A DNA stretch of 64,000 nucleotides from Marinitoga litoralis (lineage in GTDB: Bacteria > Thermotogota > Thermotogae > Petrotogales > Petrotogaceae): positions 1 through 64,000 of the forward strand of contig NZ_JAFBDI010000001.1 in assembly GCF_016908145.1 (NCBI RefSeq), in the 5' to 3' direction. The translations under genes and the position numbers were made by a program. Under the pieces are notes generated by a model. It was not told where the DNA came from and did no database searches. It was given only the letters and a program-made list of their open reading frames with translations. Every line of letters begins with the position of its first letter. Position 1 is the stretch's first letter. Positions 26,869 to 33,846 of this stretch are shown in pieces.

Positions 26869-27843
26869 ATGATAAGAACATTAGAAGCAATAGTTGGTGA
26901 AATAAATAAAGTAAAAAACATTATTGTTGTAGGTCATATAATGCCAGATGGAGATGATATTAGTTCTGTATTGGCTTTAACAATGGGATTAGAAAAAATT
27001 GGTAAAAATGTAAGAGCAGTTATAGATGATGATATTCCAGGATATTTAGAAGAGTTTCCATTTGTAAAAGAAAAAATAAAATCGTATGATTGTATTAGTA
27101 AATTCCCAGCAGAGCTAATTATATCAGTAGATGCATCATCACCTGATAGAATTGGTAGAGTATATGACCATTTCAAATTTGCTAGAAGTATTGTTATAGA
27201 TCATCATGCAACAAATACTTATTTTGGAAATGTTAATTGGGTAGATAAATTTGGAGCAACTGCACAAATGGTATTAAGATTAAATAAAATGTTAGAAGTG
27301 GAATATGATGAAGATTTAGCAACAGTTAATTTGTTGGGTATTGCTACCGATACTGGATTTTTCAAATATTCTAATACTGATGCTGTAGTATTTGAAGATG
27401 TAGCTTGGTTAGTAAAAAATGGTGGGAATATAGGATTAATATCTAATATGATTTTGGAAAATAAACCACTAGAACATCTTTTATTATACAAAGATTTTTT
27501 AAATGAAATGAAAATTGATAATAATATTGCTTATTCTCATATTACTTTAGATATGTTAAATAAATACGATATATTACCTAAGGACTCTCCTTCATTTGTA
27601 GGTGAATTAAGATCAATAAAAGGTATAGAAGTAGCTATAACTTTTTCAGAAGGGGAACCAAATGTTTATCATGTAAGTATGAGATCAAAAGATTGGTTTG
27701 ATGTATCAAAAGTAGCAGTTGCATTTGGAGGAGGAGGTCATCCAAGAGCTGCTGGGTTTAGTAAAGAAACTGATAATTTAGAAAAGCTTGAAAAAGAAAC
27801 AGTAAACGCTATTAAAAATTTAATGGAGAGTTATGAAAAATGA
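26869..27843 (+). CDS. DHH/DHHA1 phosphoesterase, NrnA-like
   Basis: The 324-residue protein is probably an oligoribonuclease / pAp phosphatase. It has four motifs: GHIMPDGDDISSV, ISVDASSPDR, VIDHHATN and IATDTGFFKYSN. GGGGHPRAAGF of the DHHA1 nucleic-acid-binding domain is near the C-terminus. The first metal motif reads PDGDD, as in typical NrnA. The next gene (MnhE) overlaps its stop by four bases, so this soluble nuclease is translationally coupled to the antiporter module. Confidence 0.9.
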   Translation: MIRTLEAIVGEINKVKNIIVVGHIMPDGDDISSVLALTMGLEKIGKNVRAVIDDDIPGYLEEFPFVKEKIKSYDCISKFPAELIISVDASSPDRIGRVYDHFKFARSIVIDHHATNTYFGNVNWVDKFGATAQMVLRLNKMLEVEYDEDLATVNLLGIATDTGFFKYSNTDAVVFEDVAWLVKNGGNIGLISNMILENKPLEHLLLYKDFLNEMKIDNNIAYSHITLDMLNKYDILPKDSPSFVGELRSIKGIEVAITFSEGEPNVYHVSMRSKDWFDVSKVAVAFGGGGHPRAAGFSKETDNLEKLEKETVNAIKNLMESYEK

Positions 27844-28262
27844 TTTATTTGTTCATACTCTTTTTGTGGTTAGGGTTTATAGGTTCTTTAAGTGATTCAG
27901 CAATAATATTAGGAATTATTGTCACTATTTTAGTAGTGAAAATTTCTGAATTTTTTCTTAAAGAGGAAATAATAGGTTTTGTTGAATTATTTATTTCTGC
28001 AATTGGAAGAATAATAGAAATGTATAAAATGACATTTAAATCAATAAAATATATATTCAAAAAAAGTTATTGTGGCTTAGTTGCTATAAATGTAGAGAAT
28101 AAGACTGATTCTGAAAAAGCTGCAATAGCAAATTGTATAACATTAACACCAGGAACAATGTTTGTATTAGAAGAAAATAATAATTTAATTATACACAAAT
28201 TTGATAAAGATCCTGATGCAGCTCATTCATCAAAAGATGTTTGGAAGGGTGAACTTTTTTGA
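27840..28262 (+). CDS. Mrp/Mbh-type antiporter subunit E (MbhA-like)
   Basis: The 140-residue membrane protein has two N-terminal hydrophobic helices, then a soluble domain: KKSYCGLVAINVENKTDSEKAAIANCITLTPGTMFVLEENNNLIIHKFD. NCITLTPGT is the MnhE signature. It is the first gene of a module with the Mbh order E-F-G-D/SBP-E/B-C-D. It overlaps both neighbours by four bases. Confidence 0.9.
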   Translation: MIYLFILFLWLGFIGSLSDSAIILGIIVTILVVKISEFFLKEEIIGFVELFISAIGRIIEMYKMTFKSIKYIFKKSYCGLVAINVENKTDSEKAAIANCITLTPGTMFVLEENNNLIIHKFDKDPDAAHSSKDVWKGELF

Positions 28263-28513
28263 TATATACTATATTAATTATTTTAGTTATATTATCCCTT
28301 TTAATGATGATAATAAAGATAATGATTGGTCCCACTCCATGGGATAGAGTTTTGGCTTTTGCATCAATGTCTACAAAACTTGCAATAATAAGTTTGGTAT
28401 ATGCTATAGTAAATAAATTTTATATAATGATAGATATAATAATAATATTTTTGGTTCTAAATTTATGGGGTATAGTTATTATTTCTCGATTCTTAGAAAG
28501 AGGGAATAAATAA
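28259..28513 (+). CDS. Mrp/Mbh-type antiporter subunit F (MbhB-like)
   Basis: The 84-residue protein has three hydrophobic helices. MIIKIMIGPTPWDRVLAFASMSTK is the conserved MnhF segment (GPTxxDRVLA). The start codon is TTG overlapping the MnhE stop (TTGA), with GGAAGGGTGA upstream. Confidence 0.9.
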   Translation: MIYTILIILVILSLLMMIIKIMIGPTPWDRVLAFASMSTKLAIISLVYAIVNKFYIMIDIIIIFLVLNLWGIVIISRFLERGNK

Positions 28514-28794
28514 TGATAGCAAATATATTAATAATATTTGGGGGAGTTTTGATATTATTAGGTAGTATAGGAATGATGAATCAAAAAGATTTATATACTA
28601 GAATTCAATTTGGAGGAATTTCTGATACAGTAGGAACATTTACTGTTCTAATTGGGCTCGCTTTACAAACTCAAAGTGAAATTTTTAGATTTATAATTAT
28701 AGGATTATTAGTATTGCTAATTGGACCAGTTTTATCACATGCTATAGCTCATAGTGCAGCATATAATAAGATAAAGGTGAGAGATAATGACTGA
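28513..28794 (+). CDS. Mrp/Mbh-type antiporter subunit G (MbhC-like)
   Basis: The 93-residue protein has three helices. GSIGMMNQKDLYTRIQFGGISDTVG and IGPVLSHAIAHSAAYN are the MnhG family motifs. The start ATG shares one base with the MnhF stop TAA. Confidence 0.9.
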   Translation: MIANILIIFGGVLILLGSIGMMNQKDLYTRIQFGGISDTVGTFTVLIGLALQTQSEIFRFIIIGLLVLLIGPVLSHAIAHSAAYNKIKVRDND

Positions 28795-29536
28795 ACTCTT
28801 AATACATTTTTTAATATTATCATTGATTTTTCTTACTATAGTATTGTTCTTTGTAAGAAGGTATATAAGTGTAATACTAATTTATGCATCTTTTGGAACA
28901 ATTCTTTCTGGAATATTTTTTATTATGAACGCACCTGATGTAGCAGCAGTACAAATGACAATAGGTTCTGCATTTCTTATTTTTGTATATATAATAGCAG
29001 TAAAAACAAGGTCAAAAATCAAAATTGGGTATATAGAAACACCATATCTTATATATAATGAAGGTAACAAACTTTTAGGATTTGAAAAGGAAATATTGGA
29101 TAAATTTTCTGAAAATTCTTTTTTTGATATTGAATATCATCCGATTAAAAAAGAAGATTTTAACACCTTTTTAAATAGTAAAAAATATGATGTTTTAGTA
29201 GGTGGTATTCTCATAGGAGATATAAGCAAATGTGAGTTTATTTGTTCTGAAGAATATTTACCTACAAAAATCTTTAAGTGTAAAGAAAAAATTCCAGAAA
29301 CATCTAATGGAATGATGTTATATTTTGATTTACCTGAAAATTTAATCGATTATTTAAGACTTAAAGATTATCTTAGAAAAAAATCAGATATAATTGCTGA
29401 AGAGTATGTAAAGAGTGGATATAGAGTTGTTTTTACAAAAAATAATAAAGCGTTAAAGGATGAATTTAATCGATTTTTGAAAAGATTTATGAATACAAAA
29501 GAATATGAGGATATCATTCGGAGGAATATAGGATGA
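28787..29536 (+). CDS. MbhD-like antiporter subunit fused to a periplasmic-binding-protein-like domain
   Basis: The 249-residue protein has two parts. Residues 1-74 are three helices with FGTILSGIFFIMNAPDVAAVQMTIGSA, the DUF4040/MbhD signature that also forms part of the MrpA C-terminus. Residues 76-249 read like a type 2 solute-binding protein (SBP_bac_3). They begin IKIGYIETPYLIYNEGNKLLGF, match the family again at YDVLVGGILIGDISKCEF and SEEYLPTKIFKCKEK, and end DEFNRFLKRFMNTKEYEDII, the usual family ending. No signal peptide separates the parts. Arg24-Arg25 after helix 1 and KTRSK after helix 3 suggest that the binding domain faces the cytoplasm, unless the positive-inside rule fails here. 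Its start overlaps MnhG by eight bases. The ligand is unknown. Confidence 0.8.
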   Translation: MTELLIHFLILSLIFLTIVLFFVRRYISVILIYASFGTILSGIFFIMNAPDVAAVQMTIGSAFLIFVYIIAVKTRSKIKIGYIETPYLIYNEGNKLLGFEKEILDKFSENSFFDIEYHPIKKEDFNTFLNSKKYDVLVGGILIGDISKCEFICSEEYLPTKIFKCKEKIPETSNGMMLYFDLPENLIDYLRLKDYLRKKSDIIAEEYVKSGYRVVFTKNNKALKDEFNRFLKRFMNTKEYEDIIRRNIG

Positions 29537-30216
29537 AAAGACTCTTTTTTTCTATTATTTCATTAATACTCTTTTTTTATGTATTGTACTTGGAAATACC
29601 AAAAGAAATTAATCATAATCCATATTATGATATAAGTGTTCTTAGTGAGAATGGTTCATTAAATTTAGTTTCTGCTATAGTTTTAGATTATAGATTTTAT
29701 GATACTTTTTTTGAAATTTTAGTTTTTACAATAACAATAATTGGCATATCTTATTTTATGAAATTTTTCAAACCTAATAAGAATGAATTTTCACCTCCTT
29801 CTGTAGTATTGAGAGTTTTTGCACCAGTAATGTTTCCTATAACCTTATTATTAGGATTTTATAATACATTAACAGGACATTTGTATCCAGGTGGTGGATT
29901 TAATTCTGGTATTATTTTAGGAACAGGAGTTTTGTCTTTAGCTTTAGTAAAAAAATATGAAGATATTGAAGATATTTTTGAAAAATCAAGAATAGAAGAA
30001 ATAAAAGTTTTAATTCCATTGTTTATTATTATATATGCTGTAATAGGAAAGATGTTTTTTGGAGAATATTTTATAAATTTTTTTCCCAAAATGCAACCAG
30101 GAAGTATATTTAGTGGTGGAAGTGCTGTAATGTTAAATTCATTTATAGCTTTTGAGGTTTTTGGTGGTTCTTGGACTATATTATATCAGTTTATTAAACA
30201 TAGGGGGTTGCTCTAG
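29533..30216 (+). CDS. MbhE-MnhB fusion subunit of the antiporter module
   Basis: In the 227-residue membrane protein, the first 80 residues contain NLVSAIVLDYRFYDTFFEILVF, the MbhE/MrpA-C-terminal segment (AIVxDYRxxDTxxE). From about residue 85, LRVFAPVMFPITLLLGFYNTLTGHLYPGGGFNSGIILGTGV is the MnhB signature. So two subunits that are separate in archaeal Mbh complexes are joined here. It overlaps its upstream neighbour by four bases. Confidence 0.85.
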   Translation: MKRLFFSIISLILFFYVLYLEIPKEINHNPYYDISVLSENGSLNLVSAIVLDYRFYDTFFEILVFTITIIGISYFMKFFKPNKNEFSPPSVVLRVFAPVMFPITLLLGFYNTLTGHLYPGGGFNSGIILGTGVLSLALVKKYEDIEDIFEKSRIEEIKVLIPLFIIIYAVIGKMFFGEYFINFFPKMQPGSIFSGGSAVMLNSFIAFEVFGGSWTILYQFIKHRGLL

Positions 30217-30551
30217 TGAATATATATTTTGTATATTCATTTATAATAATAATATTGGGATTATTCGGAATAATAATAAAAAAGGATTTGATTATTAAAT
30301 TAATTTTTCTTTCTATATTTCAATCTGGTATATTATTATTTTTTGTAGTTTTATCATATAATAAAAATATACCTATTGTAATATCTAATACCTTAAGAGA
30401 TTTTTCAGATCCATTAATTCATTCATTTTTATTAACTGTTATTGTTATTGGCTTTGCCACAATATCTCTTTCTTTAGTATATATAATGATTTTAGCAGAA
30501 AAATTTAAAACTCATGATATTGATATTATAGAAGAGGAGTTAGAACAGTAA
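30216..30551 (+). CDS. Mrp/Mbh-type antiporter subunit C (NuoK-like, MbhG-like)
   Basis: The 111-residue protein has three helices. DFSDPLIHSFLLTVIVIGFATISLSL matches the MnhC/NuoK signature (DPLxxALxLTxIVI). The start is GTG. It shares one base with the preceding stop and one with the next start. Confidence 0.9.
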   Translation: MNIYFVYSFIIIILGLFGIIIKKDLIIKLIFLSIFQSGILLFFVVLSYNKNIPIVISNTLRDFSDPLIHSFLLTVIVIGFATISLSLVYIMILAEKFKTHDIDIIEEELEQ

Positions 30552-31978
30552 TGTCTATGTTATTAATATTATTACCTATATCTTTAGGTATTCTAGCTTA
30601 TATTTCAAAAGATAATCATCGCAAGATAGGGTATTTAAATTATTTAATATTAATGAGTTTAAACGTTTATTTGGCTTTTTTTGGACATGAAGAAAGAATT
30701 TTCCCCGGTGGATGGGATAGGTTAAAAGGAATAGAAATTTATTTTCCTAAAGAAATGTATGTACTAGCTTTTTTCTTTAACATAATGATGTTAATTATAT
30801 ACTGGAGATCTGCTCGAAGACATGATAATATATTTACAGCATTGTGGTTAATGATTAATGGAACTTTAATAGGTATATTAACATCTGAGGATTTTTTTAA
30901 TACATATGTAAATTTAGAACTTATATCTATTTCATCTTTCTTGCTTATAGGTATAGGAAGAAATGAAAGAAGAATTTGGGCAAGTTTGAAATACATGTTT
31001 TTAAGTTATATTGGTCTTAGTTTTTACCTTTTAGGAGCGGGTCTAATATATGCGCAAACAGGAAGTTTAAACCTACATATTGCCTTTTCGCAAGATCCAA
31101 ACCCTTTAGCAACATCTTTAATAATCACGGGACTTTTGGTTAAAAGTGGTATGTTATTTTTAGCTGCATGGCTACCAACAGCTCATTCAGAAGCATCATC
31201 AGAAATATCTGCTGTTTTATCAGGATATATAGCTCCAATAGGTACTTATGTAATATATTCATTTTCATTATATGAAGGTTTTTATATCGAGGCAAAAGAA
31301 ATACTATTAATATATGGATTTGTATCGTTGATATTTGGTGGTATATTAGCCTTTTTAGAAAATGACGCAAAAAGAATATTAGCTTATTCTACAATTTCTC
31401 AAATGGGTTTAGCGATGATAATAATAGCAGAAAAGAAAGAATTATATATACCATTCTTTATACTTCATATGTTATATAAATCTTTAGCTTTTTATAATGT
31501 TGGACGAATATATGAAAAAACTCATTATAGGGATGTTGAAATACTAAAAACTGTAAAAGGTTATGATATAAATAAAATTTTAGCTATTTTTAGTGTTTTT
31601 GGATTATCTGGAATATTCCCAACACATACATTTTTTGTAAAAGAAGGAATTGGAATACATGGAAGTTTAAAAATAATGTTATACATTTCTGCCTTTACAA
31701 CTGCCTTTTATTCATTAAAATTGATTATGTCTTTAAAAGTATCAAAAAAATATTATTATTTAATGTTGATTATACCTATGATACCTTTGCTAAATTATAT
31801 ACCATTACATTTTTCGATTTTGGATATTTTAATATCAGGTTTAGCATTGATTGTTGGAATATTATTATCAAAGATAAAAACAATACCTATGTCAGTTAAG
31901 TTGAATTATTTGGAAAATGCATTAATATTACAGATCTTTTCTATTGTTTTAGGATATTATTTAATAAAATATATTTAA
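30551..31978 (+). CDS. Mrp/Mbh-type antiporter subunit D (NuoN/L-like proton channel, MbhH-like)
   Basis: The 475-residue membrane protein has about 14 helices and is related to complex I antiporter subunits. Expected charged residues are present: Glu in TYVNLELISISSFLLIG, Lys in TGLLVKSGMLFLAAWLPTAHSEA and Lys in DAKRILAYSTISQMG. It is the only large channel-type subunit of the module, since no full-length MrpA is present. No hydrogenase genes follow in the window, so the set looks like a stand-alone Na+/H+ antiporter module rather than a membrane-bound hydrogenase. Confidence 0.9.
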   Translation: MSMLLILLPISLGILAYISKDNHRKIGYLNYLILMSLNVYLAFFGHEERIFPGGWDRLKGIEIYFPKEMYVLAFFFNIMMLIIYWRSARRHDNIFTALWLMINGTLIGILTSEDFFNTYVNLELISISSFLLIGIGRNERRIWASLKYMFLSYIGLSFYLLGAGLIYAQTGSLNLHIAFSQDPNPLATSLIITGLLVKSGMLFLAAWLPTAHSEASSEISAVLSGYIAPIGTYVIYSFSLYEGFYIEAKEILLIYGFVSLIFGGILAFLENDAKRILAYSTISQMGLAMIIIAEKKELYIPFFILHMLYKSLAFYNVGRIYEKTHYRDVEILKTVKGYDINKILAIFSVFGLSGIFPTHTFFVKEGIGIHGSLKIMLYISAFTTAFYSLKLIMSLKVSKKYYYLMLIIPMIPLLNYIPLHFSILDILISGLALIVGILLSKIKTIPMSVKLNYLENALILQIFSIVLGYYLIKYI

Positions 31979-31995: not shown

Positions 31996-33846
31996 ATGAA
32001 AAAGTATATTAGTATATTTTTATCAGTAATATTGTTTACATTGTCTTTTGGGGCAATAATGAAATCTGTTGATGGTAACACAGTTACTGTTCAAATTTTG
32101 GAAATTAAGGACGGTAATATAACAGTAAAACTTTTTAATCAAATTTATACTGTTCAACAAAGTAATGTATTATATATTTCATTTGATGAAAAAACAACAT
32201 CTGATTATGGTGTTATTATTGATGATAAGCTTTTTTCTGGAACACTAACATCATATGCATCGAATACAGCAAATATACAAATGGATATTGGAGAAATAAT
32301 TTTAAAAGATGTATCTAAATTAAAATTTGTTAATTTTTCAAAGCCAAATGTTCCTGATATTAAATGGGTTAGAGATACACAACCACAAGATTTTGAAATT
32401 TCTTTAGGAGATAATTATACAGAAATTAAAGGGAATATTTTTGAGGCAAAAGAAAATCAACTATTTTTAAATATTCCTGTTTTAGGGCAAGGAGCAATAA
32501 GTTTAGATATTATAAAGAGTATTTCTTATCCTAAATACGAATTCAAAGAACCATATACTTTAAAATTAGTAAATGGTTATGAATTTAAATATGAAAACTT
32601 CTTAAAAAAGGTTAATGATTATTATTTCTTTGACTTGGGTTATGGAACTATTAGTTTAATTAACTCCTCTATTTATGGTTTTTCAGGCGGAATGAAAAAA
32701 CCATATACCAAAGATACTTATTTTATATTGAAAAATGGAATGAAATTCTTTGGAGAAATAAAATCTAATGTTAATGAACAAGTTGAAATTAGTAGTATTT
32801 TTGGAGATCATAAAATAACAAAGGATTCAATTTTAACATATGCAAAGATACCTTCTGATAATATAATGTTGGTAGTATCTAAAGATGAAGTATTATATGG
32901 TGATTACACTTTAGAAAACAGAAAAGTTGCTTTTAATCCATATAATAATGGGAAAATTGATTTGATTATTTTAAATAATAATAAAGAGAAAGAATCTTTA
33001 ACTAATGCTATAGAAAATTGGAGATTAGAATCAAAAATTATAAATAAATCATTAGCAATTAGTAATTATAATTTAGTTGCGTATGGAAATGATAAAATGG
33101 TTATATTAATTTCAATACCTTCAAAAGAAGGATTTAGTAGCTATAACCATGATTTTAAAGTAACTTCTATGGCTTTTGATGATGAAAGTCAGTTGTTGTA
33201 TTCAGGAGACGAGAAAGGGATTGTAAATGTATTTAATTTAACTACAAAAAATGTTGATTATATGTTTGATTTCAAAAGTAAAGTTAATTATATAACTGCA
33301 AAAAATAAAATAGTATATGTAGCGTTAGAAAATGGCGAATTATATACAATAACTGGAGTAGAAAGTAAATTATTAGCTAAGTTTGATAAGGGAATAACAA
33401 AAATAAATGTAAATGATAGAGCTATATATGTATCATTAATTGATGGAAAAGTTATTAAAATTGATAAATTTGATGGAAAAGTAATTTGGAATGTTGGATT
33501 TGATGGGAAAGTATCTGATTTAATTCTTTTGAAAAACGATAAATATCTTATAGTTTCACAAGAAAAGGGAACAATATCAATTATAGATATTGAAAATGGA
33601 AATGTTTTAACATCATTTAAGTCTTTTGAAGGAGTATATGAAATTTCATCATCATTGCTAAAAAATTATTTTATTGTTTCAGGTAAGGGCGGTAATGTAG
33701 AAATTTGGAATAGTACTAATTTAAATAAAGTTTCAAGTTTTAATTTAGGTTCTGATATTGTTTATTCATTAGTTGATTCAACAGGAGATGTATTATTTGT
33801 ATTAGAAAACAAAGCTGTTGTATCAATGAAATTATTTGAATATTAA
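31996..33846 (+). CDS. Secreted protein: SH3/Sm-like repeats plus a beta-propeller
   Basis: The 616-residue protein has a signal peptide (KKYISIFLSVILFTLSFGA). Residues about 20-350 repeat a short unit of the type 'DGNxxxxxxLxxxxLxxVxxISF' four or more times (for example VQILEIKDGNITVKLFNQIY). Residues about 370-610 carry WD40/PQQ-like blades such as VTSMAFDDESQLLYSGDEKGIVNVF, AIYVSLIDGKVIKIDKFDGKV and ISIIDIENGNVLTSF. There are probably seven blades, but I have not counted them exactly. It starts 17 bases after the antiporter module with a strong RBS (GGAGGAGGGCT) and is probably co-transcribed. No enzymatic motif was seen. A periplasmic scaffold is likely. Confidence 0.65.
   Translation: MKKYISIFLSVILFTLSFGAIMKSVDGNTVTVQILEIKDGNITVKLFNQIYTVQQSNVLYISFDEKTTSDYGVIIDDKLFSGTLTSYASNTANIQMDIGEIILKDVSKLKFVNFSKPNVPDIKWVRDTQPQDFEISLGDNYTEIKGNIFEAKENQLFLNIPVLGQGAISLDIIKSISYPKYEFKEPYTLKLVNGYEFKYENFLKKVNDYYFFDLGYGTISLINSSIYGFSGGMKKPYTKDTYFILKNGMKFFGEIKSNVNEQVEISSIFGDHKITKDSILTYAKIPSDNIMLVVSKDEVLYGDYTLENRKVAFNPYNNGKIDLIILNNNKEKESLTNAIENWRLESKIINKSLAISNYNLVAYGNDKMVILISIPSKEGFSSYNHDFKVTSMAFDDESQLLYSGDEKGIVNVFNLTTKNVDYMFDFKSKVNYITAKNKIVYVALENGELYTITGVESKLLAKFDKGITKINVNDRAIYVSLIDGKVIKIDKFDGKVIWNVGFDGKVSDLILLKNDKYLIVSQEKGTISIIDIENGNVLTSFKSFEGVYEISSSLLKNYFIVSGKGGNVEIWNSTNLNKVSSFNLGSDIVYSLVDSTGDVLFVLENKAVVSMKLFEY

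Follow-up and report, generated by a model that had tools for sequence, protein, structure and literature searches.

Mrp modules form the ion-pumping core common to complex I and MBH. MbhD is the counterpart of the first helices of MrpA TMH17–21 in the Mrp structure, and Na+ entry has been mapped to the cytoplasmic side of MrpE/F/G/MrpA-C (PMC7419157). MrpA E706 (MbhD E69) is an essential glutamate of the Na+ path, and H719, P721 (the latter at a helix end) and MrpE P114 affect the Km for Na+ (PMC7419157). The mrpCD1D2EFGAB cluster of Aphanothece halophytica is a Na+/H+ antiporter in E. coli (PMC5703873).

Here we describe an operon in the window, the 64,000-nucleotide stretch of Marinitoga litoralis DNA that was analysed, in which MbhD is fused to a domain derived from a family-3 solute-binding protein (SBP). 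An Mrp antiporter subunit is a known kind of protein; the added SBP-derived domain is the unusual part. No published description of an MbhD–SBP fusion was found in the open-access literature, subscription papers lying outside the search.

Gene, operon and reality of the fusion

The operon (27840–31978) has the order mnhE-F-G-[mbhD-SBP]-mbhE/B-mnhC-mnhD, the same gene arrangement as in the MBH membrane module. Its features are as follows:

27840..28262, +, mnhE, 140 aa, with a C-terminus short relative to Mbx-type MnhE (Pfam MNHE, E 3.5e-15)
28259..28513, +, mnhF (Pfam MrpF_PhaF, E 1.1e-9)
28513..28794, +, mnhG (Pfam PhaG_MnhG_YufB, E 3e-19)
28787..29536, +, mbhD-SBP fusion gene, 249 aa, ATG start (Pfam; frame open in ~70 genomes of the phylum)
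28787..29008, +, MbhD part, residues 1–74, three TM helices (Pfam MbhD; 6cfw_D; model helices 2–22, 28–46 and 50–73)
28952..28954, +, Gln56, at the position of the essential MrpA E706/MbhD E69 (alignment)
29012..29281, +, SBP-derived domain, first part of lobe D1, residues 76–165
29282..29395, +, lobe D2 remnant, residues 166–203, one short strand and one helix
29348..29350, +, Asp188, aligned with the D2 ligand Asp of true SBPs
29396..29533, +, return strand of lobe D1 and C-terminal helices, residues 204–249
29533..30216, +, mbhE/mnhB (Pfam MnhB, E 9.1e-20; MbhE, E 1.1e-6)
30216..30551, +, mnhC (Pfam Oxidored_q2, E 1.8e-15)
30551..31978, +, mnhD, antiporter-type subunit (Pfam Proton_antipo_M, E 1.3e-39)

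Pfam MbhD (PF13244) matched residues 13–73 of the fusion protein (E 3.6e-9, 37.1 bits, cut-off 27.2) and SBP_bac_3 (PF00497) matched residues 78–246 (E 5.6e-12, 46 bits, cut-off 26.4). With both cut-offs exceeded, the fusion of MbhD to a family-3 SBP domain claimed by the original prediction was borne out, and its domain limits (residues 1–74, then about 174 residues) and lack of a signal peptide were also right. The MbhD part carries the APDVA motif and three TM helices, and a PDB sequence search with the fusion protein returned MbhD of MBH (6cfw_D) and ArtJ (2pvu), each over the expected part. The ORF overlaps both neighbours by a few bases (mnhG ends at 28794 and the next ORF starts at 29533) and thus looks like an ordinary coupled operon gene.

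A frameshift or misassembly joining two genes can be dismissed with near certainty, as relatives already refute it: the identical fused frame is present in the ~70 genomes and in a second phylum. The prediction had flagged the junction for such a check, and it is no artefact, the fused frame being open in other genomes of the genus (59–62% identity), the family (34–45% identity) and the phylum. In one genome of the same genus (G002, locus L006, 87% complete), a frameshift lies ~10 residues past the MbhD/SBP junction and represents either a sequencing error or a broken copy.

A NuoL-like MrpA half was absent from the operon by Pfam, and NuoH/B/C/D-type genes, which would mark an MBH/Mbx redox complex, were absent beside the fused gene. 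As in a stand-alone Group 3-like Mrp, all small subunits are found with MnhC and MnhD in one MrpA-less cluster, and the operon resembles the irregular 'Group 3' kind. In our best explanation, the operon encodes a stand-alone Mrp cation/proton antiporter without MrpA and with predicted exchange activity, and the fusion protein serves as its MbhD (MrpA C-terminal-type) subunit; taken as a whole, we give this explanation an even chance. Just 3′ of mnhD, on the same strand, 31996–33846 encodes a secreted-looking 616-aa protein with beta-propeller (WD40/PQQ-like) matches.

Distribution and ancestry of the fusion

The same fusion, which the prediction proposed to seek in other Petrotogales, is present in that order and well beyond. 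A protein search matched 50 of 61 relatives. A profile search matched 102 of 103 genomes of the phylum Thermotogota, ~70 of them with the full-length fusion, the remaining matches being plain MbhD or ordinary SBPs alone. Identity to the window's protein is as low as 19% in an alignment of 40 fused proteins (A7), and a profile scan of contigs with a narrow alignment gave five loci. A limitation of the fusion to Petrotogales was rejected by its presence across Thermotogota and in a second phylum.

Many fusion-bearing genomes encode a second, unfused MbhD of ~80 residues. This form adjoins NuoH and NuoB in all 16 sampled Mbx-type loci of the phylum (L079 and L080 among them), with NuoC and NuoD also there where the fetched stretch reaches; the paralogous operon L080 contains NuoH/B/C/D-type genes. 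In the sampled loci, the fused MbhD is located in stand-alone Mrp operons. Family f10 (L076, L092, L093, L109 and L111–L114) has only the preceding mnhE-F-G at the fused gene, and its stand-alone Mrp is split, with a second MnhB and a third antiporter-type subunit (MnhD) elsewhere in the genomes. Among the three fusion-free genomes checked, G009 and G044 are without any MnhB or antiporter-type subunits and G050 has the Mbx set only.

Several variants were encountered along the way. The Mrp cluster of G038 combines MbhD, MbhE and MnhB in a single 323-aa protein (L126:3131-4099), G051 encodes a 181-aa MbhD with a ~110-aa tail that is not clearly SBP-like (L127:3424-3966) and G021 contains a third Mrp/complex-I-like cluster of a different kind, in which NuoH-B-C-D accompany two antiporter-type subunits (L130). 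A spirochaete locus (L035) encodes a plain unfused MbhD.

Outside the phylum, the fusion turned up in G202 when 390 relatives were searched, and a search of 100 small genomes found many further fusions in the same second phylum. The tail after MbhD spans 187–236 residues in the second phylum, 140–187 in Thermotogota and 105–126 in cyanobacteria. Four second-phylum tails tested against SBP_bac_3 gave E values of 1.6e-13 to 2.3e-8; fused relatives among those tested also exceeded the cut-off, with L081 just below. Aligned alone by hhalign, the Thermotogota and second-phylum tails matched with an E value of 4e-30. Second-phylum relatives retain more of lobe D2, which is near-complete in L199.

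The DUF4040 protein of cyanobacterial Mrp operons also carries a C-terminal tail (for example, WP_212666905.1 of Acaryochloris; NCBIfam PRK07377). These proteins are annotated as 'hypothetical protein'. By hhalign, the cyanobacterial tails matched the Thermotogota tails (probability 89%, E 2.4e-6), gave nothing significant against the second-phylum tails and had no D2 and no Asp equivalent; no Pfam SBP match was obtained for them. The cyanobacterial tail (L143:5977-6525; L144–L173) is probably a further eroded SBP lobe, being counted as probable on its weak D1 likeness with help from the tree. A plasmid search returned one Acaryochloris record only. In Acaryochloris, the DUF4040 Mrp operon lies near a sodium-dependent bicarbonate permease.

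A tree of MbhD and MbhE/MnhB (67 rows and 295 columns, with several long branches and the root not inferred) placed all tailed MbhDs on one side of the branch separating them from the untailed ones (support 97/83). Cyanobacteria fell within the Thermotogota fused group, beside family f8 (support 98/89), and a Thermotogota fused clade without cyanobacteria was rejected by the AU test (p 1e-4). The simplest reading of these sequences would be a single fusion event in the ancestor of the antiporter lineage. The fusion is old, and both its age and its range exceed what the prediction supposed; at least two bacterial phyla share it, and a third probably does. Computation thus establishes the identity of the parts, their fusion, its conservation and its single lineage. 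Because the fusion is real, old and multi-phylum, the SBP-derived domain is likely to be a functional component of the pump.

Fold, topology and ligand residues of the SBP-derived domain

AlphaFold2 models of moderate confidence were built from five aligned sequences and represent single proteins rather than the complex (mean pLDDT 70.9 for the window's protein and 79.7 for its relative L031). Both show three TM helices followed by SBP lobe D1, in which the two long strands (152–165 and 204–217 in the window's protein) are connected by a short strand and one helix in place of the second lobe. This D2 remnant comprises ~38 residues, compared to ~95 in true SBPs, and its loop at 171–181 has a pLDDT below 50. 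Foldseek searches of the PDB brought up folds of the SBP type (best E 3.2e-10 and 2.8e-8, TM-scores near 0.55). In a profile search of PDB sequences, D1 aligned on either side of lobe D2, ~60 residues of which stayed unmatched. The domain is therefore predicted to be one-lobed with D1 intact, and the ligand cleft between lobes is absent from the model of the window's protein. The complete SBP domain originally proposed did not hold up, as both the model and the profile alignment lack a two-lobed fold; for this reason, the domain was not classed as a working SBP.

Mean K+R counts in the phylum are 1.70 for loop 1, 0.07 for loop 2 and 3.08 for the tail. The corresponding counts in the second phylum are 2.64, 0 and 3.00. 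Cyanobacteria have almost no charge in loop 1 (0.26) but a positive tail (2.00). This positive-inside pattern would place the SBP-derived domain in the cytoplasm, as had been proposed from the charges of the window's protein, and the pattern holds across the phylum. The placement is put forward on charge pattern only. An SBP_bac_3 domain would be expected to be exported to the outer face; no signal peptide precedes this one, and its positive-inside counts suggest the opposite side.

The domain starts at the end of the MbhD helix equivalent to the P721-bearing helix of MrpA. At the position of Gln56, 21 of the 64 Thermotogota fused proteins and 10 of the 29 from the second phylum have Gln, while the Mbx-type MbhD of the window's genome has Glu. 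Of 60 fused-operon sequences from the phylum, 57 retain the DTxxE motif of MbhE, in which the exit residues D792 and E796 are taken to lie.

MnhE is 115–140 aa long in fused-MbhD operons (the second phylum excepted), compared to 155–159 aa in the Mbx type. After the TLTP-type motif, mostly 19–27 residues follow in the fused operons of the phylum (36–39 in the window's family), 21–31 in cyanobacteria, 39–50 in the second phylum and 42–47 in unfused operons of the phylum. Across clades, a shorter MnhE thus accompanies a shorter SBP domain. Correlation between the two sizes gave a rho of 0.60 within the phylum and −0.45 within the second phylum, with related sequences not independent; because the correlation is mostly between clades, it may reflect history rather than contact. 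The co-reduction is a hint that MnhE may contact the SBP-derived domain. The idea that the SBP domain substitutes for the missing MnhE end was weakened, as the largest SBP domains accompany the longest MnhE, and only co-reduction was retained.

True SBPs of the window's genome (L068 and L070) carry a T-x-E-R type motif (TxxER) in D1. Aligned with these, the fused proteins do not keep the motif alignably, and positions after GG vary freely. Asp188 aligns with the Asp that closes the D2 strand in true SBPs, and 34 of 40 fused proteins have Asp at this position. In GlnH-type proteins, this D2 Asp contacts the ligand ammonium and the motif Arg contacts the carboxylate. Strong retention of Asp188 could mean that a ligand site remains. 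The suggestion of 'a ligand, or a former ligand site' is best kept in its second half: with D2 reduced and TxxER not kept, a normal ligand-binding site is not supported and 'former ligand site' fits better. Elsewhere in the window's genome, another SBP_bac_3 domain (L071:508-1869, − strand) is apparently fused to a GGDEF-like domain, so that binding-protein domains would serve as sensors in other proteins of this organism.

Proposed role and comparison with known systems

We propose that the domain is a repurposed, one-lobed cytoplasmic cap or gate and not an amino-acid flytrap, a reading that we consider about equally likely to be right or wrong. A family-3 SBP would have been joined to MbhD and later trimmed to one lobe. 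A linker of a few residues would tether the domain to MbhD helix 3 at its cytoplasmic end, placing the domain alongside the Na+ path on the MbhD/MnhF side and close to the part of MnhE that lies in the cytoplasm. No longer a Venus flytrap, it would form a cytoplasmic cap packed on MnhE/F/G and may help to assemble or gate cation entry. We infer from position and co-reduction that the domain touches MnhE and acts as a cap or gate; control of ion exchange by the domain, part of the original prediction, is plausible from its position.

A functionless remainder of an old fusion, tolerated and slowly disappearing, would account for the stepwise drop in domain size over the three groups and for the frameshift inside the domain in G002. 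This is improbable, as the domain is in frame in the ~70 genomes across very deep divergence with core residues conserved, and G002 is the sole broken case seen. Family-3 SBPs are normally extracellular, and the domain might be an ordinary receptor for external ligands outside the cell; the charge pattern places the tail inside, the helix end is near the cytoplasmic Na+ cavity in Mrp and the model has no cleft, which together make this very unlikely.

A cytoplasmic sensor, in which the remaining lobe (D1 with Asp188 of D2) binds a small molecule or ion and thereby alters antiport, is possible but doubtful. When isolated, the D1 lobe of T. maritima ArgBP binds arginine (KD 3.4 μM; PMC7589609), so that loss of D2 alone leaves ligand binding possible, and the retention of Asp188 and the fuller D2 of second-phylum relatives, nearly complete in L199, favor the same reading. 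The loss of TxxER, with positions after GG free to vary, the absence of an inter-lobe cleft in the window's protein and the cyanobacterial tails without D2 or the Asp equivalent argue against it. More speculative still, and unlikely, is a ligand- or ion-responsive gate at the cytoplasmic mouth of the Mrp antiporter, derived from a nutrient-binding protein and inherited by Thermotogota, the second phylum and cyanobacteria; if true, it would couple Na+ export to the level of a metabolite or ion.

A soluble domain that sits by the proposed cation entry and has been retained across phyla would represent a regulatory or structural element missing from the solved Mrp and MBH structures. The fusion also suggests a possible origin for the unexplained C-terminal half of cyanobacterial PRK07377/DUF4040 proteins. 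As an evolutionary case, it captures the loss of one lobe from a binding protein, with a single antiporter lineage containing near-complete, half and remnant stages.

Compared to known systems, the fusion protein shares its three-helix fold and APDVA motif with MbhD of Pyrococcus furiosus MBH (6cfw_D) and MrpA TMH17–19. The known MbhD (6cfw_D) stops after helix 3, whereas the fusion protein continues for 174 residues and has Gln for Glu69. The Mbx-type complex of the same genomes shares the homologous MnhE-F-G-MbhD-B-C-D module and differs in having a redox arm (NuoH-B-C-D), a plain ~80-aa MbhD and a full-length MnhE. Cyanobacterial Group 3 Mrp clusters are likewise MrpA-less, with exchange known only for the cyanobacterial relative (PMC5703873). 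Their DUF4040 subunit, to which the published mrpA genes may correspond, falls on the same side of the tree and also has a C-terminal tail, which is ~110 residues long and weakly like an SBP lobe, compared to 174 residues in the window's protein. D1 sequence and fold are shared with family-3 amino-acid SBPs (ArtJ, 2pvu; GlnPQ SBDs, 4g4p; AncQR, 4zv1), from which the fusion protein differs in having no signal peptide, a single lobe, a lost ligand motif, fusion to a membrane subunit and a predicted cytoplasmic location. The isolated D1 of T. maritima ArgBP (7a99; PMC7589609) is likewise a lone D1 lobe capable of independent folding; it is engineered, soluble and arginine-binding, whereas the lobe of the fusion protein is natural and has most ligand positions changed.
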